NCBI GenBank assembly: GCA_025350915.1
Contig: JANXWX010000135.1
Location: forward strand, 1 to 63,077
Origin: Nitrosomonadales bacterium
GTDB taxonomy: Bacteria > Pseudomonadota > Gammaproteobacteria > Burkholderiales > Gallionellaceae
Length of the DNA: 63,077 nt
Direction of reading: 5' to 3'
Part shown: piece by piece, positions 4,486 to 63,077 of the stretch
How positions within the stretch are numbered: position 1 is the first letter of the stretch
Layout: the number at the start of each line of letters is the position of its first letter
Position numbers and translations under genes: made by a program
Notes under the pieces: generated by a model
Databases searched by the model: none
The model's input: only the letters and a program-made list of their open reading frames with translations
Told to the model about the DNA's origin: nothing

Positions 4486-5060
4486 TATTTTTTCTCCTTC
4501 GCACCCATGCGATCAAAAATATTGTCGGCTGATGTCTCAATGTATCGCTTTAAGTCAACATTCATATCTGTTACACCGGCCATGGTGGTTTTAACGTGCG
4601 TCATATCCAGCTCGGCAATAGACCAAATTGTGTTTGACTTGGGATCACGCCAGCTGCCAATTATGCGCGCACCGGCCAGGTTCACTCTTGTCGTGTTTTT
4701 AATCTGGCGCGTCACTGACTCCTCGTTCGCACCGGTATCGCCCGTTTTTGCCGAGGCCATATAGTCATTTGAAACGACATCCATAAAGGATGAGAACACG
4801 CGTGCCACTTCAGCTCTTGCCCTGTCGTCTGCCGTACCTTTTTGCAGCGCCATGTCGCCCATTTGAGAAGCAGAACCCACACCATGAAACAGGCGGCCAT
4901 CTTTTGTGCTCAGGATATTGCTGCCTTTATTTACCCAGTCTGGCGCACCCTTGATACCCAGGTTACTTTCAACCTGCGTTGGCTCGCTGGAACAACCCGT
5001 AAATACAGCAAACAATACTGGCAAAACCAAAAGCTTCACTACTGCATTCATATTTTTCAT
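4485..5060 (-). CDS. LPP20 family lipoprotein (paralogue of the gene at 5422)
   Basis: 191 residues from the ATG at 5060, chosen because GGAGAG lies 5 nt upstream; a TTG at 5072 in the same frame would place the Shine-Dalgarno inside the gene. The lipobox is FTGC. The domain starts GAPDWVNKGS, followed by RLFHGVGSASQMGDMALQK and TADDRARAEVARVF, and ends with GSWRDPKSNTIWSIAEL and DMNVDLKRYIETSADNIFDRM. It is clearly a tandem duplicate of the next gene upstream, but without that protein's ~75-residue helical insert. The stop overlaps the LpoB start. Confidence 0.75.
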   Translation of the reverse strand: MKNMNAVVKLLVLPVLFAVFTGCSSEPTQVESNLGIKGAPDWVNKGSNILSTKDGRLFHGVGSASQMGDMALQKGTADDRARAEVARVFSSFMDVVSNDYMASAKTGDTGANEESVTRQIKNTTRVNLAGARIIGSWRDPKSNTIWSIAELDMTHVKTTMAGVTDMNVDLKRYIETSADNIFDRMGAKEKK

Positions 5061-13825: not shown

Positions 13826-15086
13826 CATACATCATAGCTTCAGGTTTCGGCTGGCCATCACCTTCGCTTTTTTTGGCGCCATGATCAGCCTGATATTGTC
13901 ATTGGGGCTTTCTTTTACGGCACATAACCTCAGTGACAGGCTGATCGATGAAACATTGCGCGCTGAAATTGAAGACTATATTTCAAGACGCGCACGCAAC
14001 CCGAATTCGCACCCTCCCGCCACCATCAGTATCCGCGGATATCTATTCCACCCCGATCAGAATAATCCGGATATTCCACCCGCTTTGCTTGAACTGACCC
14101 CAGGGAAATATCAACTAGCACTCGACAGCATTCCGTATCGAGTCGCGGTTATCGATAAATCAGATGAACGTTATGTAATGATGTTCAACGAAATGAGGCA
14201 ACGCGAACGTGAGTCGACATTCCTGACTTATCTGGTCACTGGTGCACTGATTATGACATTGCTTTCCGCCTGGATAGGCTGGTGGCTGGCTGGCAGGGTC
14301 GTCGCACCCATTGCAGAGCTTGGCTTGCGTGTCGGCAAGGCCAGCCCTGAAGATAACATACTGGACATTGACAAAGGATTTGAACCCGATGAAATCGGTA
14401 AACTTGCAAACGTTTTCGCCGGATACCTCAGACGTATGCGCGCATTTATTGAGAGGGAACGCGCCTTCACCTCGGACGTAAGCCATGAACTCAGGACACC
14501 GCTCGCAATCGTGCTTGGTGTAGTAGAGTTGATGGAAGAGGATAGCCATCTGCAGAACAAGCAACAAGAACGCATTGCCAGAATCGGGCGTGCCACCCGT
14601 GGCATGATAGATATGACCGAGGCCCTGTTGTTGATGGGCAGAGAAGCCAGCAACGATGAACCAGTCAGACAAAAATGTGATGTATGTGACATCGTCAATC
14701 ACGCAATTGACATTCACCGCCATTTGCTCGGCACGCAAACTACGGTAAATCTAATTTGTCACAATCACCCGCATATTGCAGCCGAGCGGGCTTTATTCGG
14801 CATTGTCGTTGCCAACCTGGTACGAAATGCCTTTGCCTACACACCTTCGGGTTCGGTCACGATAAAGGTATCGGAGGACTCACTAACCGTCATCGATACT
14901 GGTATCGGTATCCATAGCGAAGAGATCGGCAATGTTTTCCAGCGCCATTTCAAGGGATCTGGCAGTACAGGCTCAGGCATAGGCTTATCACTGGTTAAAC
15001 GTATTTGTGACCGCTATGGCTGGGAAACCATTATCGACAGTACCGAAGGTGAAGGTACTTCAGCACAACTGATATTTATCGTATAA
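13818..15086 (+). CDS. Sensor histidine kinase, partner of the upstream response regulator
   Basis: 422 residues from the ATG at 13818, which overlaps the regulator's stop; the frame is open further left but that part is inside the regulator. TM1 ~10-34, periplasmic sensor ~35-134, TM2 ~135-158, HAMP ~159-210, then HisKA with phosphoacceptor His223 (DVSHELRTPLA). The HATPase domain has the N box (VVANLVRNAFAYT), G1 (VIDTGIGI) and G2 (GSGIGLSLVKRI). The short periplasmic loop has no recognisable ligand fold. Contains the Cys pair CDVC after the HisKA domain. Confidence 0.92.
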   Translation: MYSIHHSFRFRLAITFAFFGAMISLILSLGLSFTAHNLSDRLIDETLRAEIEDYISRRARNPNSHPPATISIRGYLFHPDQNNPDIPPALLELTPGKYQLALDSIPYRVAVIDKSDERYVMMFNEMRQRERESTFLTYLVTGALIMTLLSAWIGWWLAGRVVAPIAELGLRVGKASPEDNILDIDKGFEPDEIGKLANVFAGYLRRMRAFIERERAFTSDVSHELRTPLAIVLGVVELMEEDSHLQNKQQERIARIGRATRGMIDMTEALLLMGREASNDEPVRQKCDVCDIVNHAIDIHRHLLGTQTTVNLICHNHPHIAAERALFGIVVANLVRNAFAYTPSGSVTIKVSEDSLTVIDTGIGIHSEEIGNVFQRHFKGSGSTGSGIGLSLVKRICDRYGWETIIDSTEGEGTSAQLIFIV

Positions 15087-59567: not shown

Positions 59568-61146
59568 ATGAAAAAATGGAGTGCGGCAAAATGTTACACT
59601 GTTTACGGCGTAATATTCGGCATTTGTTTCCCTCTGTCAGCCTTTGTTCTTTTATATTTTACGCCGAGTAACAATAGTTTAGCAGCCCTAATCTACGCTG
59701 CACACACCGACCCTTTGCTCTACCTTATTTATACTGCCCCGCTGGTACTTGGCATCATTGCACGCATTGCGGGGATAAGGCAGGACAAGATTCATCATCT
59801 TGCCGAAGGGCTGGAAGATCTGGTTAAAGTTAAAACCGCTTCGCTTGTTCAGGCGCTGGAGGAAGCCAAACAAGCGAACGAGCTGGTTGGTCATATCGCC
59901 AACCATGACGCGCTGACAGGCCTGTTTAACCGCCGCCATTTCCAGGCAACACTGGATGGATGGGTGGGCTTTGCAACACGCTATCAACGCCAAGGCTCAC
60001 TGGTCTTTATCGATCTGGATAAATTCAAATACGTCAGACACCTTCGGTCATAGTTTTGGCGATCAATATCTGAACGCGGTTGCCAAATTGCTGGTTGAAA
60101 ATCTGCGCACCACCGATATTGTTGCACGTTGGGGTGGCGATGAATTTATCGTGTTTTTACCCGAAACTGTCGGTGCCGAAGCACACCTCGTCGGCGACAA
60201 ACTGTTGAAAGCATTTAATGAAGCCAAAATATATTTTGGTGATAATTTATTTCACCCGGCTTCCAGCATAGGCATCAGCTCTTTCCCTGAACACGCCACC
60301 ACTGCCGATGATCTTATTCTGTTTGCCGATGCCGCGATGTATGAAGCCAAAAAGGCCGGAAGGGGCTGCTGGCGTATGTATAGCTCAACAGCCGCAGAGA
60401 TTGAGCATAGCCAGAACCATCTGCAATGGGGTGGGCGTATTCGCCGGGCGCTGGATAATGATCAATTTCTGCTGTTATATCAGCCTGTGTTAAATCTCAA
60501 GACAGGCAACACCGAGGGTTACGAGGCGTTATTGCGCATGGAGGATGTCAAGGGACACCTGATAACCCCGGGCCAGTTTCTGGAGTCGGCCGAACGCGCC
60601 AATTTAAGCACCTCTCTGGATATGATGGCCACGCGCAAAGCTGCGCGCAGGGTCAGCCATATCGGTAATATTGAAGTATCGATTAACCTTTCCTCCAAAA
60701 CCCTGCTAGATAGAACGCTTATCGATAAAATTTCCGAAATATTGCTGGAGTTTCCCGATATAAGTCATAAACTACGCTTTGAAATTGCCGATGTTTCGGC
60801 TATGCAAAATCTGGCGCAAGTTCGCAGTGCAGTTGCACAAATCAAAAAGTTGGGCTGCAAAATAACGCTGGATGATTTTGGCCTCGGGCAAATTTCCATG
60901 CAATATCTGGAGCAATTATCAGTCGACCTGGTAAAAATACACCCCAGCTTGACCCGAAAAATGAACGAATCCAAAGATGTTATCTTTATCCAGAGCCTGA
61001 CAGAAATGTTGCATGGATTTAATCTTAGTGTTTGCGCAAAATCCGTAGAGGACCCGGTCATTATGGATAAACTGCTGGAAATCGGCATGGACTATGCCCA
61101 GGGCTTTGCAATTGGAAAACCTTTGGAATCATTGGAAGAGTACTAA
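59568..61146 (+). pseudogene. GGDEF-EAL protein gene disrupted by a frameshift
   Basis: The first frame (59568-60053) gives two membrane helices (residues ~10-32 and ~50-68), a short coiled coil and the GGDEF start (ANHDALTGLFNRRHF ... LVFIDLDKFKYV). The frame then breaks at 60036: the expected VNDTFGH continues only in the next frame (GACACCTTCGGTCAT). The Asn codon is reduced to a single A, which fits a 2-base deletion. Downstream the GGDEF site (RWGGDEF) and an EAL domain are intact in frame to 61146. In the EAL part the AEGVE motif reads AKSVE, KID reads KIH and loop 6 is DDFGLGQIS, so phosphodiesterase activity is unlikely. A sequencing error remains possible. Confidence 0.8.
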
Positions 61147-61239
61147 AGGAATGGCGAGGATATCGCTCAATTGATCAAACGGGCAGATCTGAATCTTTAC
61201 CAGGCCAAGGACGCAGGCAGGAACAGAATTGTCGCCTAG
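61147..61239 (+). pseudogene. Remnant of a GGDEF domain C-terminus
   Basis: Directly after the EAL stop, and in the same frame, about 30 codons encode NGEDIAQLIKRADLNLYQAK and DAGRNRIVA up to a TAG. This is the classic tail of diguanylate cyclases (L-x-x-AD-x-LY-x-AK-x-x-GRN). No start or GGDEF core belongs to it. It is likely the scar of a deletion that removed most of a second cyclase gene. Confidence 0.75.
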
Positions 61240-61311
61240 AAAGTTAGCAGATAAATTTTGTATTTCCGGTTAAGATAGCGCTGTGATCACTTGTATGGAG
61301 CATTAATCAAA

Positions 61312-61497
61312 ATGGCAAAGATATTGGTGGTAGATGACTCTGAAACCGCGAGGGTTCAAGTTAAGCTGGACTTGGTTGGCGCGGGTCATGACGTCGTTGA
61401 GGCAGAGAACGGCATAAAAGGTCTGGAAGCACTTAACGCCAACCTTACGGTCAAGAGGGACGGGCGAGAAGCCGCCCGCCCCTTACCTCAACGTTAG
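61312..61497 (+). pseudogene. Response-regulator receiver gene truncated at an attC site
   Basis: From the ATG at 61312, 43 residues of a CheY-type receiver are readable (MAKILVVDDSETARVQVKLD ... EAENGIKGLEALNANL), with the acidic pair DD at 8-9. Before the phosphoacceptor Asp is reached, the frame enters the attC-like site and ends 18 codons later (VKRDGREAARPLPQR) at a TAG that is part of its second core, GTTAGAC. So about two thirds of the receiver and everything behind it are missing. The peptide may still be made but cannot be a working receiver. Confidence 0.75.
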
Positions 61498-61499
61498 AC
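61437..61499 (+). other. Integron attC (59-be) recombination site
   Basis: About 63 bp. Right core CGTTAGAC fits GTTRRRY (61493-61499); left core is CGCCAAC (61437-61443, imperfect RYYYAAC), with ACTTAAC at 61431 as a second candidate. Inside, AAG(A)GGG pairs with CCCCTT (61453-61459 with 61479-61484) leaving one unpaired A, and CGGGCG pairs with CGCCCG across the loop AGAAGC. An imperfect stem with an extrahelical base is the structural hallmark used by integron integrases. Right side TTACCTCAACGTTAGAC is very like the known aadA site. Orientation is that of a left-to-right cassette array. Confidence 0.7.
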
Positions 61500-61583
61500 T
61501 CACTTGCATATTTTTGCGGCGAATATAGATTTACGGCTAAATGGCACGTTGCCAAAACTTGTTATTGAATTAACAGGATTCAG

Positions 61584-63023
61584 ATGAGCATCTGGGAAAA
61601 GATCGAGAAACTGGCTAGGGAGATTCTGGGTGATGCAGCGCCCAAGCCTAAAAACCTCTCAAAAATTGATGCGACCATTATTCCTGATCATGGCAAGCGC
61701 CAGCAAAAGAAATACACATCTTTTGCTGTGCCGCTGCAGGATATTGAGGTTCTTCCAGAATACGAGTTTATCTACCAGGCATTACAGCAGGGGTGTCCAT
61801 CTATCTTTGTTACAGGCAAGGCCGGCACAGGTAAGTCCACGCTGATACAGTGGTTGCGGCAAAAGCTGGAGGGCTGTGCAGTGGTGGCCCCCACAGCTAT
61901 TGCCGCAATCAATGTGCAAGGCGACACCATCCATTCATTTTTCGGTTTGCCGCCTGTTCATATTGACCCGGATGATGAATTTCACCCCAAAGAAAAAAAC
62001 CGTCTTGTTTTTGAGAATATCCGTTACCTGATTGTGGATGAAGTCTCTATGGTGTTGCCGAATATGGTTGATGCGATGAGCAATATCCTAAAGGACGTGC
62101 GCCGCAACAACCTGCCATTTGGTGGTGTGTCCACGATATTTATTGGCGATCTTTTTCAATTACCGCCAGTAGTAAGCAGCCAAGAGGAAGCCGTTTATTT
62201 CTCGCACCGCTACAGGTCGCATCATTTTTATTCAGCCGATGTTTTCAAAGAACAACAAATCATTCCTGTTAACCTGACTAAAGTCAGGCGGCAGACGGAT
62301 GTGGAATTTATCGAAGCACTGAACCACATCCGTCTGAACGACAATTGCCGGGAGCATGTGGCACTGCTCAACAGACGCTGCTTCAGGGATAAACCTGAGG
62401 GCTCTGCTGCGGGTATTTATCTGGTGCCCACTAATGTGGCCGCAAAGAAGATCAACACCCGTGAACTGGATATCTTGCAGGGAAATGTGCAGGTTTACGA
62501 GGCAACGGTCACTGGCAATTTGCCAGCCAACAAATGGAAGCTGAATGTATCAGACCGGCTGGAGCTGAAAATTGGCGCAAAGGTAATCTTCCTGAAAAAC
62601 AATAAACCGCAGTGGATCAATGGTGACTTGGGTGAAGTGGTTGGACTGGAGCATGACCACATTCGAGTGAAAAAACAGAGCAGCGACAATGTGCTAATCG
62701 TCGGCAAGGAAACTTGGTACAAATATAAGTACACCTATGACTACGAGACACGAAAAATTGAACGTCAGGAAGTGGCTTCCTTCAAGCAGCTTCCTGTCGC
62801 CTTGGGCTGGGCGATTACTATCCACAAGTCACAGGGATTGACTATCGAGCATTTGACACTGGATTTAGGCAATGGCGCCTTCTGCGAAGGGCAGACCTAT
62901 GTGGCACTGTCACGCGCTAAAACCATGGAGGGTATAACTCTAACCAAACCAATTTCAATGAGTGATGTAAAAGTGGATCATGCAGTGCTGGCGTTTTATG
63001 GGCAGATGGGTATTGAGCGGTAA
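61584..63023 (+). CDS. Pif1/RecD-like superfamily 1 helicase carried on a putative gene cassette
   Basis: 479 residues. Walker A VTGKAGTGKSTL (77-88), motif Ia VVAPTAIAAINVQG, TIHSFFGLP, Walker B YLIVDEVSM (DEVSM), motif III GGVSTIFIGDLFQLPPVV, arginine-containing motif KVRRQTDVEF, a UvrD-C-2-like insert, motif V/VI WAITIHKSQGLTIEHLTLDL and YVALSRAKTMEGI. This is a 5'-3' SF1B helicase close to Pif1 and the helicase part of RecD/TraA, without extra nuclease. AGGA lies 7 nt ahead of the ATG. It sits 85 bp after the attC-like site and 47 bp before a GCCTAAC core, the expected place for a cassette gene. Confidence 0.85.
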   Translation: MSIWEKIEKLAREILGDAAPKPKNLSKIDATIIPDHGKRQQKKYTSFAVPLQDIEVLPEYEFIYQALQQGCPSIFVTGKAGTGKSTLIQWLRQKLEGCAVVAPTAIAAINVQGDTIHSFFGLPPVHIDPDDEFHPKEKNRLVFENIRYLIVDEVSMVLPNMVDAMSNILKDVRRNNLPFGGVSTIFIGDLFQLPPVVSSQEEAVYFSHRYRSHHFYSADVFKEQQIIPVNLTKVRRQTDVEFIEALNHIRLNDNCREHVALLNRRCFRDKPEGSAAGIYLVPTNVAAKKINTRELDILQGNVQVYEATVTGNLPANKWKLNVSDRLELKIGAKVIFLKNNKPQWINGDLGEVVGLEHDHIRVKKQSSDNVLIVGKETWYKYKYTYDYETRKIERQEVASFKQLPVALGWAITIHKSQGLTIEHLTLDLGNGAFCEGQTYVALSRAKTMEGITLTKPISMSDVKVDHAVLAFYGQMGIER

Positions 63024-63070
63024 GTGCTGAATGAGAACCTCAGAATCAAACACGACGGGGTTCATTAAAA

Positions 63071-63077
63071 GCCTAAC
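63071..63077 (+). other. Likely start of a second attC site (first core), cut by window edge
   Basis: GCCTAAC, the commonest form of the attC left core RYYYAAC, is the last seven bases of the window. It pairs with the right core GTTAGAC at 61493 in six of seven positions, as the ends of a single cassette should. Only the sequence beyond the window can prove the site. Confidence 0.45.

Follow-up and report, generated by a model that had tools for sequence, protein, structure and literature searches.

A Pif1-like helicase gene in a putative mobile integron cassette of a Gallionellaceae bacterium

We analysed a stretch of 63,077 nucleotides (the window) from a draft genome of a Nitrosomonadales bacterium of the family Gallionellaceae (GCA_025350915.1; here G000). 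The window is an entire contig, JANXWX010000135.1 (G000:C181, positions 1-63077), and the draft comprises 2.97 Mb in 263 contigs, with a completeness of 99.93% and a contamination of 1.96%. Towards its right end the window runs from two genes that we take to be lolC and lolD through a GGDEF-EAL gene, a GGDEF-like remnant and the start of a receiver domain into an attC site, which is followed by a helicase gene and the end of the contig (Table 1). A preliminary description of this DNA had listed lolC-lolD and GGDEF debris on the left side and a 479-residue helicase ORF behind the attC site, and both were found in place. The two overlapping frames of the GGDEF-EAL gene may reflect a frameshift or an assembly error. 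A Pfam search with the short receiver ORF gave no match, and receiver-like ORFs resembling it occur in three of 40 other genomes. This ORF is probably the content of a preceding cassette, the other reading being that the array interrupts a chromosomal gene. At gathering thresholds a tRNA is the sole RNA-family match in the window, in a database (Rfam) that may hold no attC model.

Table 1. Features at the right end of the window (positions are those of the window).
Feature	Position	Strand	Basis
GGDEF-EAL gene in two overlapping frames, chromosomal left flank	59568..61146	+	ORF list, Pfam
Remnant like the C terminus of a GGDEF domain	61147..61239	+	read from sequence
Short ORF with the first ~43 residues of a response-regulator receiver, running into attC	61312..61497	+	55-56% identity to receiver-like ORFs
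attC site	61437..61499	+	covariance model E 4.3e-14 (7.7e-13 whole genome), fold
Helicase cassette, ~1.58 kb seen, from TTAGAC of R', open at contig end	61494..63077	+	L029 block
Pif1-like SF1B helicase, 479 aa, apparently intact	61584..63023	+	Pfam, PHROG, Pif1 structures, motifs
GCCTAAC, probably the R'' core of the attC that belongs to the helicase cassette, truncated at contig end	63071..63077	+	sequence, pairing

The 63-bp site had been proposed as attC-like on account of its cores, internal stems and an unpaired base. Its left core R'' (CGCCAAC, 61437-61443) agrees only weakly with RYYYAAC, the right core R' (GTTAGAC, 61493-61499) fits GTTRRRY, and the two pair at four of seven positions. 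The proposal was said to fall if no covariance model matched the site and no attC-like fold followed GCCTAAC. The genus model (R1) scores it at 55.6 bits, with an E-value of 4.3e-14 over 165,432 bases and 7.7e-13 over the whole genome, values that are somewhat flattered because the motif used to collect the training sites was partly taken from this site, though the site itself stands outside the training set. The same model finds no further attC in the 63-kb window at E up to 10. For the bottom strand of the site the fold has an energy of -14.9 kcal/mol (z -2.98), a value reached by 2 of 200 shuffles. In it the R boxes pair and are followed by an unpaired spacer, the L boxes pair but leave single bases unpaired, and a hairpin forms the tip. 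Folding of the top strand is weaker (-12.3 kcal/mol, z -2.32). The bottom strand is the folding strand, and the cassettes run from left to right. The same kind of fold (z -6.02) is formed by the attC site on L029, a contig of another bacterium that is introduced below. Folding alone is modest evidence, since the minimum-energy bottom-strand folds of two other sites of the genus, L002 (z -0.88) and L043 (z -1.64), leave the R boxes unpaired and do not form the full stack of R and L boxes. Model match and bottom-strand fold together bear the proposal out.

The covariance model was built from sites of the genus itself. The motif TCAAGNGGGAC...GNCCCTTA, derived from the window site and from a site on contig C201 of the same genome, occurs four times in G000 and 19 times, forward or reverse, in five genomes of the genus, against no match in the reversed control. 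Fifteen of the 19 sites entered the model, which has 63 positions and 15 pairs. The other four did not: the window site, the C201 site, which is truncated at the contig end, and two sites, G004:C7:6691 and G002:C15:264886, whose R'' or R' could not be identified. At E up to 0.01 the model recovers at least 8 sites in G000, at least 33 in G002, at least 14 in G003 and at least 14 in G004, and none among the 150 candidates scored in G001; the counts are lower bounds, as scoring covered 150 candidates per genome out of the 864 to 1432 found at first look. The model is checked independently by its matches on C105, C16 and L029, in which the exact collecting motif is absent. Besides the window site, G000 has at least seven attC sites, one of which adjoins the integron integrase gene on C201. 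Other attC-flanked contigs of G000 carry BrnT-type toxin-antitoxin and glyoxalase-family ORFs, which are usual cargo of integron cassettes.

Several further sites in G000 are recorded here as observations in their own right. An attC-like stem between CCCTAAC and GTTAGAT follows a transposase-like ORF on C105 (L100, 829-900); it was identified by reading and is missed by the genus model. Two contigs with phage-type genes carry model matches, C116 (L040, 14825-14887, 67.8 bits) and C212 (L012, 660-720, 60.3 bits): C212 encodes a terminase and a portal protein, and C116 has a weak terminase match together with a DNA methyltransferase. On L040 a perfect 96-base repeat (14073-14168 and 14740-14835) ends in GCCTAACCCGG before two different attC-like stems, and the short ORFs at the repeats seem to be opposed to the attC direction. 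The occurrence of attC sites on phages is already on record (PMC9892861).

A full integron integrase gene (intI) lies on C201 at 472-1437 and matches TIGR02249 with 479.8 bits (cut-off 265). Matches above the cut-off were obtained in all five genomes of the genus and in none of 14 control genomes; the G001 gene is interrupted by a stop codon in frame, and in G003 the match is limited to positions 1-215. On C201 the attC site occupies positions 1-61 on the strand opposite to intI, and the contig ends inside it. An attI-like junction in front of intI, at about 333-345, is read here as the putative attI. The divergent layout of intI and attC is common to G000:C201, G004:C6 and G003:C66. The presence of model attC sites beside intI, in the same layout in three genomes, indicates that this attC type belongs to the integrons of the genus. 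A whole-genome search of G000 with TIGR02249 (E up to 1e-30) found matches on C201 and C172 and none on C181. The array had been described as lacking a visible integrase, which holds for the window contig but not for the genome, where an intact IntI (C201) and a split copy (C172) are found. This second copy (L011, 111-1105) is split over two frames beside flagellar genes, which were identified by reading the ORFs.

The limits of the helicase cassette became apparent from a second copy. One genome per species (genome_contigs) and a collection of viral contigs (viral_contigs) were scanned for the helicase, in searches that detect close relatives only: the former contained one locus, with a 92% identical protein, and the latter none. 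The 41 genomes of relatives, G000 among them, yielded nothing beyond the copy in the window and a single match in G038, which is short and weak. The single close relative lies on JAIOPT010000107.1 (L029), from a betaproteobacterial metagenome-assembled genome named after Lake Fargette/Lac Pavin. In a BLAST alignment, positions 61477-63074 of the window match L029 4892-6492 with 94.3% identity over 1602 columns. The block of homology starts inside the attC site, 16 bases before R', and stops at 63074, inside the terminal GCCTAAC. In both genomes the cassette stands directly behind an attC, and the copies share 92% of the protein and 94% of the DNA sequence, whereas what precedes them differs: L029 has another attC (4847-4914, E 2.7e-5) and another ORF of 183 aa that has no Pfam match. 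Behind the L029 helicase the genus model detects no attC. The final GCCTAAC of the window pairs at six of seven positions with GTTAGAC, the core at the 5' end of the same cassette, and the end of the homology at this point agrees with the earlier view that the window closes on the left core of the cassette's own attC. In a search for the continuation of the array past 63077, the last 118 bases matched other contigs over stretches of 15-19 bases at most. The presence of the same helicase cassette in two settings, delimited at the cores, suggests that it is mobile, and on these sequence comparisons we read the unit as a mobile integron cassette. The attC model, the fold and the copy bounded at the cores all agree with the original description of an integron-type gene cassette.

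The helicase matches the Pfam family PIF1 (PF05970; 6.5e-28), the Dda-like helicases of PHROG 325 (phrog_325; 1.8e-80) and solved Pif1 structures (best three 4.7e-83 to 2.4e-70, the best over residues 70-472). It contains the helicase motifs GKAGTGKST (78-86), DEVSM, FIGDLFQLPPV (186-196), AITIHKSQG (410-418) and YVALSRAK (439-446). Pif1-like enzymes unwind DNA 5' to 3'. The window and L029 copies differ at 28 synonymous and 39 non-synonymous positions, and the resulting dN/dS of 0.39 (Fisher p 2.8e-4) indicates that the gene is under purifying selection. The helicase relatives found on plasmids and phages all have less than 60% identity, and the annotation tables of two of the 75 records (H1 and H8) list no integron integrase near plasmid relatives. 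No promoter-like site was found on the plus strand between 61100 and 63077. The absence of such a site in front of the gene makes it likely that the helicase, if it is expressed at all, would be transcribed by read-through from the left.

Cassette groups that stand apart from an integrase are normal in this genus, and the array in the window appears to be of the same sort. In the 3.3-Mb genome G002 the attC matches (at least 33) fall into 12 groups at a limit of 4 kb, against one integrase match. They are carried by contigs C2, C4, C9, C10, C11, C12, C13 and C15, and three of the 12 groups lie close to the end of a contig. In the group L114, some 6.7 kb beyond lolD, the order is ORF, attC, ORF, attC, ORF, flanked by genes that by reading are pepN-like and amidohydrolase-like. 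The gene lolC is present in all five genomes of the genus. A BLAST comparison of its surroundings revealed no clean empty site, and in none of the four other genomes does this GGDEF-EAL gene directly follow lolD.

Taken together, positions 61437-63077 very probably represent the left portion of an array of integron cassettes in a draft genome, consisting of the attC site and a Pif1-like helicase cassette of about 1.6 kb that ends in its own attC core. The IntI encoded on C201 would work in trans: it would cut the folded bottom strand of the attC site at the R' core, and the helicase cassette would be excised or inserted as a circle. On the left flank, with its GGDEF-EAL and lolCD-like genes, there is neither intI nor attI beside the array, and IntI is encoded on other contigs. 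Since the array adjoins chromosomal genes on the left, a cluster away from attI is likely, and it may have arisen through entry of cassettes at a secondary site or through loss of the attI end. By default, IntegronFinder 2 is described as calling a CALIN from at least two attC sites (PMC9024848). The chromosomal left flank makes the label CALIN, which the preliminary description had used, plausible, but the window holds one complete attC, the second being cut by the contig end, so that fewer sites are visible than this default asks for.

Stems also occur as transcription terminators or by chance, and a crude core-and-stem scan did yield many false sites. That the stem at 61437-61499 is of this kind is scarcely credible: the genus model scores it far beyond chance expectation, the specific motif was silent in the reversed control, terminator-like sites are absent from the stretch, and the second copy of the cassette is bounded at the cores. 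The function of the cargo is open to another reading as well, namely that the cassette carries an anti-phage defence gene, as had been suggested at the outset. Integron cassettes with defence genes have been reported, and PADLOC returns weak matches to the helicase, the best with 51.1 bits. These matches, however, are partial, involve long multi-domain proteins and fall mostly within the shared ATPase core (residues ~75-196), while the full-length protein is nearer to Pif1 and phage Dda-like helicases. The cassette contains neither a strong defence-family match nor a defence neighbour. The suggestion gained no specific support, and we consider a defence role very improbable. As judged from its sequence the protein is most likely an accessory replication/repair helicase, a general role being the default.

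The array might be a part of an ordinary chromosomal integron that was split by the assembly and lies inverted or near the C201 integrase. The draft is fragmented, C201 and the window both end inside an attC, and draft genomes are described as splitting integrons and inflating the number of CALINs, some of which are spurious (PMC9024848). But read from IntI, C201 is a left end, as is the window, each with chromosomal genes 5' and cassettes reading away from them, so that the two are not the two ends of one uninverted array. We regard such a split as unlikely. A deletion of the attI end, by which an internal attC of a degraded integron was joined to the beginning of a chromosomal receiver gene, is a serious possibility, if somewhat short of even. 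It would account for a receiver ORF that is cut exactly at the attC, and the adjoining GGDEF-EAL gene, which stands in two frames and is followed by a GGDEF remnant, also fits. A first cassette of about 250 bp beginning at GTTAGCA (61243; five of seven pairs with R'') fits equally well, however, and G002 has intact-looking cassettes without an integrase about 6.7 kb after lolD. There are six GTT heptamers in 61101-61440. Of these positions, GTTGGCG at 61375, a 7/7 complement of R'', was considered as a left boundary and was taken as chance, as it lies inside the receiver ORF and the similarity to receivers is continuous across it. A broader reading, which we put forward with considerable reserve and think rather improbable, is that in this genus a single integrase, acting in trans, has spread cassettes throughout the chromosome and into resident phages, that phages carry them from cell to cell, and that most attC clusters, the one in the window included, stand alone.

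The cassette in the window is a clear case of one large cassette, with a Pif1-like helicase, common to two bacteria at different sites. Through this analysis a group of betaproteobacteria is added in which an integrase occurs together with a recognisable attC type and numerous scattered attC sites. If scattering by one integrase in trans were true, the genus would offer an obvious system in which to test the insertion of cassettes at secondary sites of the genome (attG), a term that reportedly figures in a title by Loot et al. (2024). Compared with known helicases, the N-terminal 50-60 residues of the protein have no match in Pif1-like or Dda-like enzymes, whereas residues ~52-474 align end to end with Pif1-like helicases of Thermus and Bacteroides (structures 6s3e and 5fhd) and with phage Dda-like helicases. 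Compared with chromosomal integrons and CALINs, the window differs in its single complete attC, in having no attI or IntI within it and in its helicase cargo. With chromosomal integron cassettes, CALINs and single-attC elements it shares the R and L boxes, the boundaries at the cores, the single direction of the genes and an intact IntI in the genome.
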